This document shows positions 1,777 through 19,328 of a stretch of 31,717 nt of DNA, piece by piece. The notes beneath the pieces are model-generated. The model was not told the DNA's origin, made no database searches, and was given only the letters and a program-made list of their open reading frames with translations. Made by a program: the position numbers and the translations under genes. The stretch's first letter is position 1. Each line of letters begins with the position of its first letter. Source of the stretch: a virus; the IMG/VR virus record IMGVR_UViG_3300033149_000842, positions 1 to 31,717 of that record; one strand, written 5' to 3'.

Positions 1777-2071
1777 TAATACTATACGTGCAGTTATTAT
1801 CACCTGTTTCATTATTATTGTCTTGTGTCTTATTGGACTTGCTATCTTATCAGTAGTTGATGCAAGTGGGTTAAGTGATGAGACTATAGAGATAGTTAAT
1901 GATTTAAGATGGAAGCATTATGGTCTTGGTACTCTTTTTGCAAGTGATACCACAGACTGGGACTTTGTTTATGACTGGACAACTATATCATTTGATGATG
2001 AGCTCGGTATTTTGTATGTAGAAACTAATAATGGCACGTGGTTTGTAGAGATGCAAAGAAAGGAGGAGTAA
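1769..2071 (+). CDS. Small membrane-anchored hypothetical protein
   Basis: This 100-residue protein has one strong hydrophobic segment, about residues 8-30 (VIITCFIIIVLCLIGLAILSV). The remaining part is acidic and aromatic, rich in Trp and Asp (DTTDWDFVYDWTTISFDDE), and is probably a small beta domain. The N-terminus lacks the positive charge and cleavage site of a clear signal peptide, so a single-span membrane protein is more likely than a secreted one. It starts inside the end of the methyltransferase gene (8-base overlap), and its stop lies just before the start of the polymerase gene, so it belongs to the early operon. No family was recognised and the function is unknown. Confidence 0.65.
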   Translation: MSNNTIRAVIITCFIIIVLCLIGLAILSVVDASGLSDETIEIVNDLRWKHYGLGTLFASDTTDWDFVYDWTTISFDDELGILYVETNNGTWFVEMQRKEE

Positions 2072-2073
2072 AT

Positions 2074-4344
2074 ATGATAGTAAAACCAGTGGGTCCTCTT
2101 GATGCTAAAATTATGTTTGTGGGCGAAGCTCCAGGACGAAATGAAGAAATGCAGGGTATTCCTTTCGTAGGAGGAGCGGGTAAAATACTAAACCAACTCC
2201 TATCTCAAGCTATGATATTAAGAAGTGATTGCTACCTTACTAATGTAATGGTAGACAGACCAATTAATAACGACTTTGGAAAGTTCTACGAAGATAAAAG
2301 TAGAAAGGTTCCTTCAAAGTTTCTTCTCGAAGGTATACAAAGGTTGAAGGGAGAAATAGAAAAGGTAAATCCTAATGTAGTAGTACCACTAGGGAATGAA
2401 GCGCTCAGAGCTATCACAGGATTAAGAAGTATTACTAAGTACAGAGGCTCAATACTATTCTCCACGCTAGTCCCTGGTCAGAAGGTAGTACCCGTAATCC
2501 ATCCTGCAGCTATAATGCGGAATTGGGACTGGGCTCCACTTACGTTGGTAGACTTAGAGAGGATTAAAGTAGAAGCAAAAAGTCCCACTCATAAGTTTAC
2601 ACTTAGATTATTCCACAAGATTGAAAGCATTGAACGACTTAAGACAGAAGTGAAGAGAGCACTTAAAGCTGAGTATATAGCATTTGATATCGAGACTTGT
2701 AATAATCAGATAAGCTGCATAGGCTTTGCTACAAGTGAGTCCTACGCTTTTGTAGTGCCCATTCATATGTTCGAAACTTCTAACTGGTCGGAGACCGACG
2801 AGAAAATTGTCTGGAAACTTATAAAGAAACTTCTGGAAAGTGATGTAAAAAAGATAGGACAGAATGCTAACTTCGATATGTTCTTTATTAGGTCTACTGT
2901 AGGTATTGAGGTAAAAAATCTATGGCTTGATACCATGGTCGCCTTCCATTGTGTATATCCTGAGTTGCCAAAAAGCTTAGCTACTCTCTGCTCAATATAT
3001 ACTGACCAGCCTTACTATAAAGATATGATTAGAAGCAAATACTACGAGTACAATTCCCTCGACTGTATGATAACTTATGAGTGTGCTTTAAAGATTAAGG
3101 AAGAGTTGATAGAGTTTAGAACTTGGGCTGTATACAAAAATGTAGTCCATCCTATACTAGGTATACTTCTAGATATGGAGACGAAGGGACTTAGAGTAAA
3201 TTTAAACAAGAAGCACTTAGCAGCTGCATCCACGATGGAAGAAATAAAGATGCTCCAAGCGAAATGGGATAAAGCAGTGGGGCATACACTTAACGTGAAC
3301 TCTCCTAAAAAGATGGCTGAGTTCCTTTATGATGAGTTAGGACTTCCTGAGCAGTACAATAGGAAGAGCGGAAGAGTTACTACAAACGTCAAATCCCTAC
3401 ATAGGCTCGCTGCTAAGTATCCTAGCGTGGTATTTGATTATATAGAAAGGCTAAGGAAAGTGAGGAAGGTATACTCTACGTATCTAACCGCTATCGTGGA
3501 TAAAGATAATAGGATAAGATGCTCTTACGTGTTGTATGGAACTGAGTCAGGGAGATTAGCGTCTAAGATGAGTAGATTTGGCTCCGGTATGAACTTGCAG
3601 AATGTACCAAAGGGTATATGTAGAGAGATAGTAATCCCGGACGAGGGGTATATGTTTATATCTGCTGATTTGTCTCAAGCTGAGATGAGAGTAGTAGCTT
3701 GGTTAGCTAACGATACCATTCTTATAAATACATTTAACTCTGGAAAGGATGTATTTAAGGTAGTAGCTGGTATTGTATTCGATATTAAAGTGGAGGATGT
3801 TACTCGTGAACAACGGCAACTAGCTAAACATATTAGTCATGCATGCAACTATGGTATGGGACCTATGACCCTTAGTGAGATATCAGGACTTAGCTTTGCT
3901 GATAGCAAAGAGAAACTTAACTCGTACCATATCAACTTCCCACGAATACGGATGTGGCAAATGGAGATAGAAGCTAAACTTAGGAAGGTACGTATGCTGG
4001 AAACTCCCATGGGGAGAAGGCGTACATTCTTTGGTAGATGGAACAATGCTTTACTTCGGCAGGCTTATAGTTATATACCTCAGTCTACAGTCTCAGATGT
4101 AATACTTATGGGTATGATAGAGTTGAATAGAAGGCTACCGAAGAGTTGCAATATACTTCTAAACATACATGACGAAGTAGTTATACAAGTACCAATTACA
4201 GGAACTATGACTGATAGTACGTTTATAAAAAACATGAAGTATATAATGGTAGAATGTATGACTATCCCTATTCGGATAAGTGATAAAATATTAAGAATAC
4301 CTGTGAATACTAAGCATGGTATGAATTGGAACGAAGTAAGTTGA
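2074..4344 (+). CDS. polA: Uracil-DNA glycosylase (family 4)-3'-5' exonuclease-family A DNA polymerase fusion
   Basis: The 756-residue protein is the phage replicative polymerase. The start is ATG 2074 after AGGAGG (2061-2066); an upstream in-frame GTG lies inside the previous gene. Residues ~1-180 resemble family-4 uracil-DNA glycosylase: GEAPG at 17-21, then IPFVGGAGK, and a VIHPAA motif at 141-146. Next comes a DEDD exonuclease: DIET at 205-208, QNANFD (ExoII) and YNSLD (ExoIII). The polymerase domain has motif A ADLSQAEMR (Asp532), motif B ending in NYG (592-594) and motif C HDE (699-701). All catalytic positions look intact, so polymerase and proofreading should be active. Glycosylase-polymerase fusions exist in some phages with unusual pyrimidine metabolism; that link here is inference. 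A LAGLIDADG gene follows directly. Confidence 0.93.
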   Translation: MIVKPVGPLDAKIMFVGEAPGRNEEMQGIPFVGGAGKILNQLLSQAMILRSDCYLTNVMVDRPINNDFGKFYEDKSRKVPSKFLLEGIQRLKGEIEKVNPNVVVPLGNEALRAITGLRSITKYRGSILFSTLVPGQKVVPVIHPAAIMRNWDWAPLTLVDLERIKVEAKSPTHKFTLRLFHKIESIERLKTEVKRALKAEYIAFDIETCNNQISCIGFATSESYAFVVPIHMFETSNWSETDEKIVWKLIKKLLESDVKKIGQNANFDMFFIRSTVGIEVKNLWLDTMVAFHCVYPELPKSLATLCSIYTDQPYYKDMIRSKYYEYNSLDCMITYECALKIKEELIEFRTWAVYKNVVHPILGILLDMETKGLRVNLNKKHLAAASTMEEIKMLQAKWDKAVGHTLNVNSPKKMAEFLYDELGLPEQYNRKSGRVTTNVKSLHRLAAKYPSVVFDYIERLRKVRKVYSTYLTAIVDKDNRIRCSYVLYGTESGRLASKMSRFGSGMNLQNVPKGICREIVIPDEGYMFISADLSQAEMRVVAWLANDTILINTFNSGKDVFKVVAGIVFDIKVEDVTREQRQLAKHISHACNYGMGPMTLSEISGLSFADSKEKLNSYHINFPRIRMWQMEIEAKLRKVRMLETPMGRRRTFFGRWNNALLRQAYSYIPQSTVSDVILMGMIELNRRLPKSCNILLNIHDEVVIQVPITGTMTDSTFIKNMKYIMVECMTIPIRISDKILRIPVNTKHGMNWNEVS

Positions 4345-5213: not shown

Positions 5214-6452
5214 GTGAGTATACCAAGAAAGTTTGAAGGCAGCTGGCTACGGCATTATCTCGACTTCACTAAAGGAATGGAGTCACCTGAGATATTTCAC
5301 TTCTGGGTAGGTATATCCTTGATAGCTACAGCTCTCGGTAGGAACGTATTTTTAGATAGAGGATACTTTAAATTGTATCCTAATATGTTTATTGTGCTTC
5401 TTGCCGAGTCAGAAGAGTGTGCCAAGTCTACTGCTATAAAAATAGGTGTAAATATGGTATTGAGAGACGATGAGATGGAAAGCTGCCCTATGATTTTTGC
5501 GCAGAAGGCTACTCCACAAGCTCTAGTTGAGACACTAGTAGATGAAACTGGAGTGCCTGATGCTGATAGGGTAATACATAAGAACGCAGAGGTATATGTA
5601 GCTGCATCTGAGCTAGCTGTATTCCTCGGCAAAAAGGAAAAGAACTCCGAGCTTCTAACTATGTTGACTGACTTATATGATTGTCCAGATAAGTGGGCAT
5701 ATAAGACTAGGTTCAAGGGATGGGAGCAAGTTGTAAATGTATGCCTTAACATGGTCGCAGGTACTACTCCCAAGTGGTTAAGGGAGACTATCCCTAGGGA
5801 TGCTGTAGCTGGTGGGTTTGTTTCAAGGCTGGTATTTATTTATGTAAATCATACAGATAGACAGTTTGCACATCCAAAGTATACAGAGGTAGAAGAAGAG
5901 ATTAGAGTGAAGCTAGTTCATGACTTGAGTCTCATTAGAAGGATTAAAGGTCCTTTCAAGTGGGGGCATGGGTCTAAAGATTGGTATACAGCATGGTACA
6001 AGACTAATGCTGAGAGATTGAGAAAGTCTCCTGAATTGTATGTAAGAAGAAAGAAGGACTTAGTCTTGAAGCTAGCTATGTGCATATCTGCATCCAAGTC
6101 AGATGATAGAGTGATTAATATTGAGGACTTAAATACTGGAGTTAGCGCTGTAAATAAAGTAGAAGAATATCTACCTATAGCTATAGCCCTTATTTCTTCC
6201 ACGACTATGGGAGATGATACTAGGAAAGTTCTTGAGATAGTAAGAAGAGAATTAAAAGTAGACCATAGTAATCTATTAAGAAGGCTTTGGCACGTGCTGG
6301 ATGCAAAGAGGCTAGGAGAAATAATTCTGACATTAGAAGAGTCGGGGCTTATAAGTACTGAATTTGATACTAAAACATCGAAGAAGATATATAGTTATAT
6401 TGGTAAAGATAAGAAAGTATCTTCAGCTAACTTAATGGGTTATCTACCGTAA
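5214..6452 (+). CDS. DUF3987-like helicase/primase-type ATPase
   Basis: The 412-residue protein resembles the phage replication ATPases annotated as DUF3987. The N-terminus has a conserved-looking block, with HFWVGISLIATALGRNVFLD followed by RGYFKLYPN. A P-loop-like segment, AESEECAKST, at residues 64-73 keeps Lys71-Ser72-Thr73 but lacks both glycines of a standard Walker A. AASELAVF (Glu133) is a plausible Walker B. The C-terminus (from ~340) looks like a winged-helix segment (LLRRLWHVLDAKRLGEIIL, then LEESGLIS). The GTG start at 5214 follows AAGAGGTGAT. With polA and the methyltransferase it forms the replication block; no other helicase or primase is visible, so this may supply that activity (inference). 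The stop overlaps a palindromic site at 6448. Confidence 0.75.
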   Translation: MSIPRKFEGSWLRHYLDFTKGMESPEIFHFWVGISLIATALGRNVFLDRGYFKLYPNMFIVLLAESEECAKSTAIKIGVNMVLRDDEMESCPMIFAQKATPQALVETLVDETGVPDADRVIHKNAEVYVAASELAVFLGKKEKNSELLTMLTDLYDCPDKWAYKTRFKGWEQVVNVCLNMVAGTTPKWLRETIPRDAVAGGFVSRLVFIYVNHTDRQFAHPKYTEVEEEIRVKLVHDLSLIRRIKGPFKWGHGSKDWYTAWYKTNAERLRKSPELYVRRKKDLVLKLAMCISASKSDDRVINIEDLNTGVSAVNKVEEYLPIAIALISSTTMGDDTRKVLEIVRRELKVDHSNLLRRLWHVLDAKRLGEIILTLEESGLISTEFDTKTSKKIYSYIGKDKKVSSANLMGYLP

Positions 6453-6472
6453 GTTCAATAATTGATAATACG
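6448..6472. promoter_or_regulatory. 25-bp imperfect palindrome, site 1 (candidate operator)
   Basis: The sequence has the form CGTA-N3-TCAAT-A-ATTGA-N3-TACG. Both half-sites are complete: TCAAT/ATTGA and CGTA/TACG. It spans the stop codon of the helicase-like gene and ends just upstream of the AAGGAGG of the next gene. Related copies lie at 18067 and 25818. The symmetric form suggests a dimeric DNA-binding protein rather than a transcription terminator. Which protein binds it is unknown. Confidence 0.5.
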
Positions 6473-14984: not shown

Positions 14985-16565
14985 CTAAAATCTTTCTTTC
15001 ATCACTTCTATATTATTATTTAATATTAGGACATTATCTTCCACGCCCTCAAACAAGTCGTCTATCGCTTTATTTAAATCCTTACCTACAACTATAGGTC
15101 TTAAGGTGACGTCAGTAAACTCGTGAGCCTCCTCATCAGGTTCATAGTCGTCGAGCCACTGCTTAATTATCGTGTTATTTTGATTTATAGTAGTAAACAT
15201 ATCTGAAATGTTAGATATAAAATTATTTATAATTGCGGTCAAGTCTTCAGGCTTATTTGATAGCTTGACTAATTGCATAGATGGCATTACTTCTTGTAAA
15301 TTAGAACTTTCATCGTAGTCCGTTCCACCATACGCCGCCTGTAGATACTCTCTAACCACGTTAGAATTATGATTAAGAGTTATACATATATCTGACATGC
15401 TAGTCTCAAAGTTAATACAATTCTTCTTAAGGTCTTTACCTTTAGATTCGCAAGGGAATATTATTGGATACAAGGGAAAATCTTCAAGTGTAGTAAATGA
15501 TACCTCAGCTCCATATCCATATCCAGCACTATTATACCCATATGCTTTAACATAAATCGTGGTTACAGGAGTAAGCCCAGTTAGAATGGATGTAAATGCT
15601 TCCGCTCCAAATGTACCCTCTTCTTCAACTATGTTATCAGCTACTGTAGGTGAGCCAGTAGTATTCCAACATACACCACGTTTAGTGCAATCTTCCCCGC
15701 CTGTATCAGTAATCTCTCCTCCTCCATTTGCTTTGTTTGGTAGGATGTTAGTTATCTCTTCAGTAGTTACAGTAGGTATAACTATAGAAATTATAAACGC
15801 TCCAGCTTTGTAGGCATACGTAGACCCACCTAAAAACTGTTCCCATATTAGATTTCTATCACTATCGTACTTTCTAGTTGCACCAACTCCGCCAGTTCCC
15901 CATCCAGAAACAATCAAATGATTATCTGCTGCCGTAAGACAATAAGCAGGGTCTGTTGGAGATGGAAAACTCCATTCAGTATAACCAGATAAATCCAGTG
16001 GCATATAATATATTTTATCTGCCCCTTCAGAAATATATAAATTAGAACCACAAATGCCAAAACCGGCATTTTCTAGTATATTACCTACATACAGTGATGC
16101 TAGTAGCACTCCTGCACTACTTCTTTTCTCTATCTTTTTTGTACTTGTATTATAGATATAAAAATTATCGTTCGAATCTAAACACATCCCTCCAGCATAA
16201 GAACCACCTAAAGTCATAACATCTTCTATAATAGTTAAGTCTGTAGTATTTCTTTTTGCAATAGCATATCCTGAAGCTCTAATTTCAAGCGTATATAAAT
16301 AACCATCAAGTCCAAGAATTAATGATACAAACCAATTATTACCACTCTCTATATCTTTAGTAACCAGCACATTCAAATTAGAATCGTATTTTTTTAAAGT
16401 GTCCCCGCCTTCATCTGTATAGACATTTCCTTGAGAGTCCATAGTTACTGCACAACCAGAATAACTCCAACCAACAACAGCGAGTTGTTTTAATAGGTTT
16501 CCATCCGCATCAAAGGTTCGTAGTTCACTTGGTGGATATACAATCAAAGTATATCTTAAGCCCAT
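14985..16565 (-). CDS. Beta-propeller/FN3-like fibre or receptor-binding protein with helical C-terminal repeats
   Basis: The start is ATG 16565, overlapping the preceding stop as TAATG with GGGAGAGG upstream. The 526-residue protein has three parts. Residues ~1-275 contain repeated NHL/PQQ-like blades (FDADGNLLKQL, MDSQGNVYT, YDSNLNVL, LDSNDNFYIYN, YDSDRNLIWE), a likely beta-propeller. Residues ~285-368 form an FN3-like domain (TKRGVCWNTTGSPTVADN, LTGLTPVTTIYVKAYGYNSA) of a type common in Bacteroidetes-like surface proteins. The C-terminus has three ~32-residue helical repeats beginning KDL, EDL and KDL at about 377, 440 and 495, each with an Asn-rich heptad-like core, a likely trimeric stalk. 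It lies next to the tail gene and probably contacts the host surface (inference). Confidence 0.7.
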   Translation of the reverse strand: MGLRYTLIVYPPSELRTFDADGNLLKQLAVVGWSYSGCAVTMDSQGNVYTDEGGDTLKKYDSNLNVLVTKDIESGNNWFVSLILGLDGYLYTLEIRASGYAIAKRNTTDLTIIEDVMTLGGSYAGGMCLDSNDNFYIYNTSTKKIEKRSSAGVLLASLYVGNILENAGFGICGSNLYISEGADKIYYMPLDLSGYTEWSFPSPTDPAYCLTAADNHLIVSGWGTGGVGATRKYDSDRNLIWEQFLGGSTYAYKAGAFIISIVIPTVTTEEITNILPNKANGGGEITDTGGEDCTKRGVCWNTTGSPTVADNIVEEEGTFGAEAFTSILTGLTPVTTIYVKAYGYNSAGYGYGAEVSFTTLEDFPLYPIIFPCESKGKDLKKNCINFETSMSDICITLNHNSNVVREYLQAAYGGTDYDESSNLQEVMPSMQLVKLSNKPEDLTAIINNFISNISDMFTTINQNNTIIKQWLDDYEPDEEAHEFTDVTLRPIVVGKDLNKAIDDLFEGVEDNVLILNNNIEVMKERF

Positions 16566-18052
16566 TACTTCCTCTCCCTTTCTTTCTGTTTGATACCATA
16601 AAATCTCAAGTACCACTTCTGCCCAGACGTAGCATCCCTAAATCTAAACCTAACCTTCCTCGTAGTCTTCAAGAAGTCATAATCGTAAAGAGCATATGCA
16701 GCTGTTAATTCCTTTTCGCTCGTACCAAGCCAATTTTCTCCTTCATCTATTGAGTACTCTAAAGTTAGCCTCGAAGAAGTGGAGTACCCCTTTAGGTCAA
16801 GTCCTAGTCCAAAGAACCTTCTATTTTTAATTAGATGCTCCACTTTGTCTATTACAAAATCTCCAGTTTCAAACTCGGTGCTAATAGCATCCCCTTTATC
16901 CGTAAGAGTCTCATAGTCATAATGATATACAGATACGGGGTCTGTAGACCTAGCCAAGAGTGTCCTTTCTACTCCATCTTTAACCACGCTTCCCATAGCA
17001 GTTGTTGCAGCTAATGTACCTCTGCTCCAACTTTCTTCTCTTATATTCCAAGTCCACATACGTTTAGGATAAGAAGTATCATCTATAGGTATAACAAGAT
17101 GAACCTCACCTTCATAATGGTTAACTACCATGAAAGAGTAATCTATCCAAGCCTTCTTTATTTCACTACGTATTTCATCCTTTATAGGGTCACCTATATG
17201 AACTAACTCTCTCCCTCCATTCCACTTATGTACATTTAGGTCACTTCCTAAGAATATATGGTAAGTTCCAAGGTTTGCAAGTGCTCTAGCCGCTGCTAGC
17301 CCTATACCATCTATCTGTACATTTAGAGCAAATGTACTAGCTCCCCCTATGTAACTCATTAAAATACAAGAGTAATCTTTATATACACCTACCCAATTAC
17401 CCATAAGAGCAGCGCCCCTTAGATTGACTCCCATTCCATCTGTTATGTCTATATAACCGGAACCTGTATCGTTTACATTATCAAAGTCGCCTGCTACGGA
17501 GTATATCATTCTTATAGGAGTACCTATTACACCCTTGTCATTAAATCCACATAATCTAAACTTGTACGGAAGTAAAGTGTATGGTCTGTAATCACTCCAG
17601 TTAGTAGTTTTTCCATCAGATAAATTAGTTAATGAAGCACCATCCCACTTTTTAGGAGCATAATAGCCATCGCTATATACAAAGTAATTTTGTATAGAAG
17701 CCATGCCAAAACCCCTTGTAAAACTACCCTTTACTACATCACTTCCTTCTGATATAGCAGTCCATACTCCATCTTTGTTATAATATACACCATCTTGAGT
17801 AGCTAGTATCTCATATTCTTTCCCGTTGAACCTTTGAAAACGAAAAAAAGCTATAGGGTGACTACTAGATATAGCAGTATAAGTACCATAAGCTTTATAA
17901 CCAGTCCTCGTGCTTACTATTCCATTCTTAAATCTTACATTATTACATTTGACGCAAGCACGAGGGTCTAGCATAGTAGTTGGTACGTTACCTATTACTC
18001 CCATCGTTGGCGCAGGCACAGGAAGAACTTCTATTATGTTATCCTTAGCCAT
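16565..18052 (-). CDS. Tail/stabilisation-type structural protein
   Basis: This 495-residue protein starts at ATG 18052 after AAGGAGA. The N-terminal block (DPRACVKCNNVRFKNGIVST, then RTGYKAYG) is typical of a phage tail-complex protein found in many podovirus-like genomes, in which a conserved opening is followed by beta-propeller-like repeats (FFRFQRFNGKEYEILATQDG, YFVYSDGYYAPKKWDG, LGTYHIFLGSDLNVHKWNGG). The C-terminal ~100 residues look like a beta-sandwich (FRFRDATSGQKWYLRF). No signal or membrane segment is present. It is coupled by TAATG to the fibre gene. A tail-hub, nozzle or stabilisation role is inferred from family appearance and position. Confidence 0.7.
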   Translation of the reverse strand: MAKDNIIEVLPVPAPTMGVIGNVPTTMLDPRACVKCNNVRFKNGIVSTRTGYKAYGTYTAISSSHPIAFFRFQRFNGKEYEILATQDGVYYNKDGVWTAISEGSDVVKGSFTRGFGMASIQNYFVYSDGYYAPKKWDGASLTNLSDGKTTNWSDYRPYTLLPYKFRLCGFNDKGVIGTPIRMIYSVAGDFDNVNDTGSGYIDITDGMGVNLRGAALMGNWVGVYKDYSCILMSYIGGASTFALNVQIDGIGLAAARALANLGTYHIFLGSDLNVHKWNGGRELVHIGDPIKDEIRSEIKKAWIDYSFMVVNHYEGEVHLVIPIDDTSYPKRMWTWNIREESWSRGTLAATTAMGSVVKDGVERTLLARSTDPVSVYHYDYETLTDKGDAISTEFETGDFVIDKVEHLIKNRRFFGLGLDLKGYSTSSRLTLEYSIDEGENWLGTSEKELTAAYALYDYDFLKTTRKVRFRFRDATSGQKWYLRFYGIKQKERERK

Positions 18053-18066
18053 GAATATTCTCCTTG

Positions 18067-18091
18067 CGTAAGTTCAATAATTGATATTATG
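18067..18091. promoter_or_regulatory. 25-bp imperfect palindrome, site 2
   Basis: The sequence has the form CGTA-N3-TCAAT-A-ATTGA-N3-TATG, with one half-site mismatch. Its first 20 bases are identical to site 1 at 6448-6467. It fills the gap upstream of the tail protein gene and overlaps the stop codon of the 64-residue gene. Confidence 0.5.
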
Positions 18092-18281
18092 CTTCCTTGT
18101 CTACTTGAAATATAAAGCACAAGAAAAACATTAAGATATCATCATACTTGTTATCTGTTTTTGATGCTTTTTCTCTTGCTTCTTTCAATGCTTTAACAAG
18201 ATTTTCACGTAATTCACCTGAGATAGATGCAACTAACTTATCAAGCATACCAACAAAGTCTAGTAATTTTAACCAATTCAT
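18087..18281 (-). CDS. Small late protein in the lysis region, unknown
   Basis: The 64-residue protein starts at ATG 18281 after GAAAGGAGG. It has an N-terminal amphipathic helix (NWLKLLDFVGMLDKLVAS), a charged middle (ENLVKALKEAREKASK) and a hydrophobic C-terminal stretch (DDILMFFLCFIFQV). The pattern resembles small phage proteins of unknown function that sit next to lysis genes. It follows the three membrane microproteins and may belong to the lysis group. A holin regulator or an accessory virion protein are both possible; neither is supported by a motif. Confidence 0.65.
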   Translation of the reverse strand: MNWLKLLDFVGMLDKLVASISGELRENLVKALKEAREKASKTDNKYDDILMFFLCFIFQVDKEA

Positions 18282-18307
18282 ATCAAATTCCTCCTTTCTA
18301 ATTTATT

Positions 18308-18385
18308 TTACCACGGTAGCTGTCCACCATTGAAAGCTAAAAAAGCAAAGAACGCTATTATAGCTCCAAAAATTATACCAATCAT
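18308..18385 (-). CDS. Membrane microprotein B (25 residues)
   Basis: A 25-codon gene below normal calling limits. ATG 18385 is preceded by AAGGAGGAGATATC, a strong ribosome site. The product begins MIGIIFGAIIAFFAFLAF and ends NGGQLPW: one transmembrane helix with a short polar tail. It resembles microprotein A encoded just upstream in length, the [IL][IL]FG[AG] start and the xLPx end, which suggests a tandem duplication. Position behind the endolysin suggests membrane action in lysis, but this is inference. Confidence 0.6.
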   Translation of the reverse strand: MIGIIFGAIIAFFAFLAFNGGQLPW

Positions 18386-18412
18386 GATATCTCCTCCTTC
18401 CTTAATTTATTC

Positions 18413-18490
18413 CTATCCAGGTAATTCTATCCAGCCAAGTACCAATGCAATTAACGCAAATATGAACCCACCAAATAACAAGCCTCCCAT
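18413..18490 (-). CDS. Membrane microprotein A (25 residues)
   Basis: The 25-codon gene starts at ATG 18490. It shares the A of the stop of microprotein C (TAATG), and its AGGAGGTGA ribosome site lies inside that gene. The product begins MGGLLFGGFIFALIALVL and ends GWIELPG: a single glycine-containing transmembrane helix. It is similar to microprotein B (same length, FG motif, LP near the end). Start coupling and strong SD argue for real translation. The function is unknown; a small holin-like or regulatory membrane peptide is possible. Confidence 0.62.
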   Translation of the reverse strand: MGGLLFGGFIFALIALVLGWIELPG

Positions 18491-18570
18491 TACTTATCAC
18501 CTCCTTTTCTGTTTATTATAACGAATATATAAAATAAAATAGCGAGTATTAATACTAAGATACAAGTCAT
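18490..18570 (-). CDS. Membrane microprotein C (26 residues)
   Basis: The 26-codon gene starts at ATG 18570, overlapping the endolysin stop as ATGA, and ends by overlapping the next ATG. The product begins MTCILVLILAILFYIFVII and ends NRKGGDK: one transmembrane helix with a positive C-terminal tail, so it should insert with the tail in the cytoplasm. The final codons double as the ribosome site of microprotein A. Its own ribosome site is weaker (AGGGG within the endolysin end), so translation may depend on the endolysin gene. It is unlike A and B in sequence. Confidence 0.58.
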   Translation of the reverse strand: MTCILVLILAILFYIFVIINRKGGDK

Positions 18571-19007
18571 CTTACACCCCTAATCAGTCTAATATTATTT
18601 ACTCCATATACAGACATATACTCTCCACTTTCTGCCCAATATGGAGGATTACTATCTAGACTTTTATCATAATAATGTCGTACATTAGGTATAGGATTAT
18701 GTCTCTCTGTACTTTGTATAACAACTATTGCTACACCTATACACACTTCCCAAAGGTTACCTGTAATTGTTCCTTTAATCTTTTTATAATTAGGGTCATT
18801 TTTATTCCAACAGCTAAACTGCTTCGGCTGTAAAACTACATCCTTGTATGTATCTCCATATCTTTTTGTATGTAACCTATTCCGTATTACCCAACCAACT
18901 GCAAGCATAGTTTCTATACTTTCTCCTCTTGCTTCACCATATATAGTCTTTGCAAGATGAAGAAGGTTTGTATCCAATGTTGCAAGTTTAGCTAACTTAG
19001 AAATCAT
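18567..19007 (-). CDS. Endolysin, SleB-type cell-wall hydrolase
   Basis: This 146-residue protein is a cell-wall hydrolase of the SleB (Hydrolase_2) type. Motifs are LAKTIYGEARGES (catalytic-type Glu25), AVGWVIRNR, VVLQPKQFSCWN and HYYDKSLDSNPPYWA, which together cover the usual fold. Family members cleave peptidoglycan glycan strands. There is no signal peptide, so it should be released by a holin. It starts at ATG 19007, overlapping the stop of the holin candidate (TAATG), and its own stop overlaps microprotein C. The arrangement lipoprotein-holin-endolysin-microproteins forms a compact lysis cassette. Confidence 0.85.
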   Translation of the reverse strand: MISKLAKLATLDTNLLHLAKTIYGEARGESIETMLAVGWVIRNRLHTKRYGDTYKDVVLQPKQFSCWNKNDPNYKKIKGTITGNLWEVCIGVAIVVIQSTERHNPIPNVRHYYDKSLDSNPPYWAESGEYMSVYGVNNIRLIRGVR

Positions 19008-19237
19008 TATCCTTTACCTTGTCCATTTTTATTCAACCGAGCTATCTCAGTCGTTAAAGATGCTATGCTAGTACCCATAGTTCTCGTGTTATTACTATCT
19101 TCTATTACTATCCCTTTTAGTTCTATTATTACTGTCTTAAGTCCATTAATTGTAGGTATTAACTTCCATATAAGTATAAGACATATTGCTATAGGAAAAC
19201 CTACTTTAGATATTATATCTACTAAATCAAGTTCCAT
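19007..19237 (-). CDS. Holin candidate
   Basis: This 76-residue protein starts at ATG 19237 after AAGGAGG. One transmembrane segment, about residues 12-29 (VGFPIAICLILIWKLIPT), follows a short acidic N-terminus (MELDLVDII). The rest is a soluble, probably coiled-coil tail (TRTMGTSIASLTTEIARLNK) ending in a basic Lys/Gly cluster. Size, one N-terminal membrane helix and direct coupling to the endolysin gene fit small BhlA/UviB-like holins. Family assignment is by topology, not motif, so a different membrane role is possible. Confidence 0.65.
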   Translation of the reverse strand: MELDLVDIISKVGFPIAICLILIWKLIPTINGLKTVIIELKGIVIEDSNNTRTMGTSIASLTTEIARLNKNGQGKG

Positions 19238-19247
19238 TATATCCTCC

Positions 19248-19328
19248 TTACTTTAGCTCTATCGGCTCTACAGGATTACACCCTGTCAGCATAAACATCA
19301 ATGCTATACATAATATTACATATTTCAT
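19248..19328 (-). CDS. Micro-lipoprotein (26 residues), possible lysis accessory
   Basis: The 26-codon gene starts at ATG 19328 after AAGGTG. The product is almost only a lipoprotein signal: MKYVILCIALMFMLTGC followed by NPVEPIELK. LTGC is a good lipobox, so the mature peptide would be a lipid-anchored decapeptide starting at Cys17. Its tail copies the end of the protein encoded just upstream (NPIEPITK). It sits directly before the holin candidate, in the position expected for a spanin-type lipoprotein, but is much shorter than known outer-membrane spanins. If real, the host may have an outer membrane. Confidence 0.6.
   Translation of the reverse strand: MKYVILCIALMFMLTGCNPVEPIELK

Follow-up and report, generated by a model that had tools for sequence, protein, structure and literature searches.

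Genes of the cassette

The window, that is, the whole stretch of DNA analysed here (31,717 nt), is a contig of an uncultured phage taken from a virus record. The cassette under study runs on the minus strand throughout, in the order of 26-aa lipobox ORF, 76-aa holin-like gene, SleB endolysin gene, C, A, B, P64, and virion structural gene. Its features, in positions of the window, are as follows.

19248..19328, minus strand: 26-aa mini-lipoprotein ORF with lipobox LTGC, a possible part of the cassette (PF08139 LPAM_1, 15.4 bits, cut-off of 20 not reached)
19007..19237, minus strand: 76-aa holin-like protein of YvrJ type, N-terminal transmembrane (TM) segment and tail (phrog_4898 holin, 4.4e-5)
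18567..19007, minus strand: endolysin, SleB-type cell-wall hydrolase lacking an N-terminal TM or signal segment (PF07486, 3.9e-15; phrog_938 endolysin, 1.3e-15; hydropathy)
18490..18570, minus strand: C, 26 aa (MTCILVLILAILFYIFVIINRKGGDK), very hydrophobic TM helix with a positive tail (sequence)
18497..18506, minus strand: ribosome-binding site of A, AAGGAGGTGA, within the last codons of C (sequence)
18413..18490, minus strand: A, 25 aa (MGGLLFGGFIFALIALVLGWIELPG), one TM helix, GxxxG close to the N-terminus, terminal GWIELP (sequence, shuffles, homologs)
18393..18399, minus strand: ribosome-binding site of B, AAGGAGG (sequence)
18308..18385, minus strand: B, 25 aa (MIGIIFGAIIAFFAFLAFNGGQLPW), paralog of A without charged residues, GxxxG, C-terminal LPW (sequence, shuffles, homologs)
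18290..18297, minus strand: ribosome-binding site of P64, AAAGGAGG (sequence)
18087..18281, minus strand: P64, 64 aa, placed third in the module, amphipathic with three helices, motif A-x(2)-T-x(4)-D-D (homologs, alignment, AlphaFold2)
16565-18052, minus strand: virion structural gene right after P64 (phrog_3287 match)

A preliminary description of the locus had presented C, A, and B as membrane microproteins of 25-26 residues with one hydrophobic helix each, chained to the endolysin by ATGA and TAATG overlaps, and had assigned to B a strong ribosome site of its own. All of this agreed with our analysis: the genes lie at the coordinates listed, the junctions are exact (ATGA for endolysin/C and TAATG for C/A), and AAGGAGG stands before B in the A-to-B gap of 27 nt. 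That description omitted two ORFs, namely P64 (18087-18281), a member of the same module, and the upstream 26-aa lipoprotein ORF (19248-19328). The last codons of C (RKGGDK) double as the ribosome site of A, so that the charge at the end of C may result only from translation of this site. The cassette showed no terminator-like site, and an Rfam scan of the window for antisense RNA was empty.

The highest 17-residue hydropathy within the first 45 residues of the endolysin was 0.63, indicating that a SAR or signal segment is absent. Since an endolysin without an export signal needs a true holin, the candidate for this function is the 76-aa YvrJ-type protein. Its gene (19007-19237) may tentatively be called a holin gene; the score against PF12841 YvrJ was 26.1 bits, under the cut-off of 29.5. 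Relatives of this protein precede endolysins in contigs L020, L023, and L025, and the L020 relative scored above the YvrJ cut-off. Because such a gene already stands before the endolysin, an accessory role of the microproteins is more plausible than that of sole holin.

Directly before the holin-like gene, the ORF at 19248-19328 has a good SD and encodes a mature part of about 10 residues. It possibly encodes a minimal lipoprotein and might conceivably resemble an o-spanin, in which case a Gram-negative host would be indicated. Neither a lipobox nor a TM segment with periplasmic domain, the features of spanins, was found in A, B, or C. Elsewhere in the window, a uracil-DNA glycosylase domain is fused to a family A DNA polymerase (2038-4344) and a ParB-like domain to a DNA methylase (517-1776).

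Coding evidence and family relations of the microproteins

The Kyte-Doolittle maximum over 17 residues was 3.48 for C, 2.52 for A, and 2.75 for B. When both strands of the window were scanned for ATG ORFs of 20-35 aa with an SD match of at least 5 and a hydropathy of at least 1.8, only three matches were obtained, namely A, B, and the mini-lipoprotein of the same cassette; dinucleotide shuffles of the whole window gave 0.2 matches per strand. In the 309-nt interval, the two observed matches were reached in none of 20,000 shuffles, and at an SD match of at least 4 the three observed matches were likewise reached in none. Shuffled bases of C stayed open and equally hydrophobic at a frequency of 5e-5. 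The pooled synonymous codon score of A, B, and C was in the coding range, and 3.8% of out-of-frame windows reached the same score.

The order A-B-P64 is intact in G013 (IMGVR 3300031673_000129; the record of L003), the genome of which is otherwise unrelated. Its microprotein A' is 64% identical to A; third positions hold 15 of the 26 nucleotide differences (pS 0.77, pN 0.22), and 11 of 25 codons differ only synonymously. Comparison of B with B' (MHNLIGVLFGAFIALMIALIFGVEIPWL) gave dN 0.42 and dS 1.00, and pooling of A and B gave dN 0.33 and dS 1.59, indicating purifying selection at the codon level; the ratios are only approximate because the sequences are short and dS is near saturation, and their direction is clear. 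The L084 and L004 microproteins, with 5 synonymous and 4 non-synonymous codons, are too close for such a comparison. The preliminary description had named missing conservation and missing codon constraint as evidence that would count against it; for A and B, the homologs and dN/dS values gave the opposite result.

Family links were assessed from alignment scores relative to shuffled sequences. The direct link of A to B reached p 0.03-0.07 only, whereas the links A-B', B-A', and A'-B' had p <= 0.0005, and the relation of A to B is thus established through A' and B'. By these scores, A and B are paralogs, as had been proposed. A was also linked to the microproteins of L082 and L004/L084 (p <= 0.0015), and the L004/L084 microprotein to that of L052 (p < 0.0005); each member was linked to some other member better than shuffled composition. 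Common to the members are a GxxxG or GG close to the N-terminus, a near absence of charge, and a Trp near the C-terminus, often in the context W-I-E-L or L-P-W. In the TM helix, GxxxG takes the form GLLFG in A and A', GIIFG in B, and GVLFG in B'. A, B, and C fall outside all families of Pfam, PHROG, and NCBIfam, a tblastn search of annotated phage records with A and B gave no match, and an A/B motif scan of viral contigs returned out-of-frame chance matches only; the scan missed A' and B' because its pattern required exactly one residue after LP.

ORFs of 25 codons are common in principle, and it might be argued that the microprotein ORFs are products of chance or artefacts. This is hardly credible; the shuffles, the conserved order, and dN/dS rule it out for A and B, which, judged from their sequences, are real, conserved genes under codon-level constraint. 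For C, no homolog was found, which gives the objection some footing, so its status depends on arrangement and hydropathy, and these speak against chance. Within the operon, C probably encodes one more membrane peptide, which is not conserved. The proposed set of three holds for A and B; a relation of C to them was not detected, and its slot is filled by other short TM genes in L082, L003, L052, and L018.

These TM genes immediately follow the endolysin (L082 4689-4832, L003 5452-5625, L052 4774-4911, and L018 4867-4998). They form a largely coherent family, three of them with a Cys-x(3-4)-Cys-Pro tail, and gave no Pfam match where tested; C did not match them above shuffled composition (p 0.06 or more).

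The module in other phages and the P64 family

The A/B family is defined here as single-helix microproteins of 25-28 aa with their own ribosome site and followed within 19-39 nt by a microprotein or P64. Such genes were found in six contigs, in all of which the module genes are 19-39 nt apart and each has its own ribosome site. Besides the window and G013, four contigs (L082, L084, L004, and L052) carry a one-copy form, a 26-27 aa microprotein and P64. G013 was reached by a P64 profile over all records, and L082 and L084 by one further scan. In L004, a small-hydrophobic-ORF filter applied to all fetched loci brought up a microprotein of 27 aa related to A, with a 52-aa protein related to P64 encoded behind it, and the same pair is present in L052. 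A search of 294 genomes of the phylum of a Planctomycetota MAG gave a match in that MAG only.

A same-strand endolysin lies upstream of the module in 6/6 contigs (0-4.5 kb), in line with the lysis neighbourhood claimed beforehand for A and B. It is directly before C in the window, and at 0.2 kb in L082, 0.9 kb in L052, 2.5 kb in G013, 4.0 kb in L004, and 4.5 kb in L084; the G013 value depends on its contig ends, which overlap by 49 bases, so that the contig is probably circular. Other genes stand between module and endolysin in G013, L004, and L084. The SleB endolysin of the window is 82-83% identical to those of L003 and L004, the flanks of which are unrelated to the window. Both of these phages, the only others with a SleB endolysin of >80% identity, have the module despite their different flanks. 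As the DNA just after their endolysins cannot be aligned, L003 and L004 were first read as cases of non-conservation; this was rejected because the module lies further downstream.

Relatives of the window were recognised by the capsid gene (90%) or the tail gene (35-53%) and, where complete enough, resemble it in gene order, with a holin-like gene and an endolysin followed by variable small membrane genes and then the tail gene. Several relatives sharing the tail gene (L019, L020, and L023) do not have the module, which is thus not essential. In the related L018/L019, a recognised LLH holin (PF09682) occupies the slot ahead of the tail gene. The endolysin itself has been exchanged, with SleB in the window and M15 peptidases at the same slot in the capsid/tail relatives.

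Further TM microproteins were noticed in these contigs. The lysis region of L018 contains three micro-ORFs with SD, at 5315-5410 (31 aa), 5431-5508 (25 aa), and 4058-4156 (32 aa), unrelated in sequence to A/B; the first two are within a stretch absent from the close relative L019. L029 (3013-3102) and L023 (3023-3124) encode TM microproteins of 29 and 33 aa, their genes lying a few kilobases ahead of the capsid gene; the two are related, with a match better than all 3000 shuffles.

The AlphaFold2 model of P64 (pLDDT 78) consists of three main amphipathic helices, and its hydropathy of 1.32 gives no clear TM helix. P64 homologs adjoin microproteins in L083, L082, L084, L004, and L052; weak P64-like matches in L079, L080, and L081 were left out. 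A single-sequence search of viral contigs with P64 returned nothing, whereas the five-row alignment did give relatives. Likewise, the P64 sequence of the window on its own did not match PHROG 2738 or 402, and the P64-family alignment matched the cyanophage-type alignment (PHROGs 2738/402) in hhalign with 95.8% and E 8e-9. These two PHROGs, of unknown function, comprise small phage proteins including cyanophage ones, and agree with the P64 family in their helical layout and in having the A-x(2)-T-x(4)-D-D motif. Unlike P64 here, the genes in the cyanophages examined have no recognised microprotein neighbour. No relation of P64 to LLH holin was found by hhalign, a fold search with the P64 model gave nothing below E 1, and the solved structures searched contained no credible match. 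A 23-base stretch (TATCAATTATTGAACTTACG core) occurs with 96% likeness at 6448-6470 and 18067-18089 (minus strand), that is, at a second intergenic site and at the P64/tail gene junction, and is possibly regulatory.

The neighbours of P64-type genes bear on its function. In L089 (4449-5168), a phage lysozyme ORF runs stop-free and in frame into a P64-type domain, which has its own SD (AAGGAGGT) and ATG and may thus be made fused, alone, or both; a weakly holin-like gene adjoins it. In L090, an endolysin (phrog_10051, 1.7e-72) and a TM/coiled-coil gene are followed by a P64-type gene. In T4-like marine phages and cyanophages, P64-type genes are near tail, terminase, or other genes, and no annotated endolysin adjoins them. 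A role in virion assembly (tail or packaging) could be considered from such positions, as P64 precedes the structural gene 16565-18052 in the window, cyanophage relatives sit between tail fibre and terminase genes, and a probable tail-sheath gene comes after the P64-type gene in L086-L088. Nevertheless, T7-like phages, too, have their lysis genes between tail fibre and terminase, a single TM helix would be unusual for a tail part, and the tail-gene scan did not return the contigs of L003, L004, L082, and L084, which makes this role improbable.

The module moves among unrelated phages, and it might merely travel beside lysis genes as a late host-takeover or superinfection-exclusion unit, or as a small membrane toxin partnered by P64. 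A and B resemble Hol_Tox (PF16935) and type I toxins such as PepG1 in being short hydrophobic peptides. The scores are far below the cut-offs (15.2 bits for A with PF16935, gathering cut-off 23.3; 12.3 bits with NF041589 PepG1, cut-off 70), and the endolysin upstream in all six contigs and the P64 domain in frame with lysozyme further argue that this explanation is quite unlikely.

Proposed role and comparison with known systems

From the gene status, order, protein-level selection, and neighbourhood of A, B, and P64, which are established here, we infer a function. A conserved set downstream of cell-wall-cutting enzymes in several differing phages probably helps to burst the host. In our reading, A/B and P64 would be a late, co-expressed accessory part of the lysis module that acts on the holin step, to which we assign a probability of about 0.5; judged from the gene arrangement, they are probably holin partners or timing factors. 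GxxxG is a helix-packing motif. The nearly uncharged helices of A and B, with insertion deduced from hydropathy, would assemble in the inner membrane, and P64, a partner suggested by its constant adjacency, would be at the cytoplasmic face with them. Given their neighbourhood, the three proteins may serve as antiholin, co-holin, or timing factor for the 19007-19237 protein, and thereby set the time at which the cytoplasmic SleB endolysin reaches the wall. Against this reading, none of the microprotein or P64 relatives has a tested function.

Alternatively, A and B might be hole-forming holin subunits whose GxxxG helices oligomerise into lesions, with P64 or the 76-aa protein as regulator. The location, the motif, the duplication into two similar subunits, and the weakness of the holin call for the 76-aa protein would fit, and a phage may have several holin-like genes. 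In mycobacteriophages, deletion of a single-TM protein caused a severe lysis defect (PMC13056207), which also counts in favour. On the other side, no holin this small was among those found described, the single-TM lysis-cassette proteins surveyed in Gordonia phages being 79-145 aa (PMC9671378), and relatives with the same type of holin-like gene do without the module. Pinholins, moreover, accompany SAR endolysins, which the window lacks. We regard hole formation by A and B as rather unlikely. It is similarly doubtful that the A/B family represents the smallest lysis effectors known in dsDNA phages, tandem 25-residue near-chargeless GxxxG helices that, with P64, would make up the holin lesion or control its opening.

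A and B are missed by ordinary gene finders, as the limit of standard callers is roughly 30 codons. A conserved family below this limit at a lysis-gene site suggests that genes of the same size are hidden in other lysis cassettes. Fremin et al. 2022 reportedly catalogued predicted small genes of phages in general, and the A/B family could be listed there without a function. With the widespread P64 type (PHROGs 2738/402) linked to lysis neighbourhoods, its function can be tested directly. If A/B and P64 are indeed lysis effectors, this would be the first function for the large cyanophage PHROG 2738/402 family. Helices of 25 residues are also easily synthesised for membrane studies.

Among known systems, the pinholin S21-68 of phage 21 resembles A and B in its small size and in the GxxxG of its TM helices, and a pinholin had been among the earlier suggestions for the microproteins. 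The assignment to class II holins of the S21 type was rejected: S21 has two TM helices within 68 residues (about 65-75 in this class), a dual start, and a SAR endolysin, whereas the window encodes one helix per microprotein and a cytoplasmic endolysin without SAR or signal segment. The large periplasmic domain of class III holins (T4 T type) is absent from the microproteins, which have nothing beyond the helix. The single-TM holin-like proteins of actinobacteriophages (LysF1b and Ms6 gp27), which affect lysis timing, are like A and B in having one TM helix and in standing behind the endolysin in a cassette with several membrane genes (PMC13056207, PMC9671378). Proteins of that type comprise 79-145 aa with a charged cytoplasmic domain, whereas the A/B proteins are domainless and almost chargeless at 25-28 aa and are compared here by layout, not by sequence relation. 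Accordingly, single-TM lysis proteins are a known kind, and those described are 3-5 times longer than A and B.
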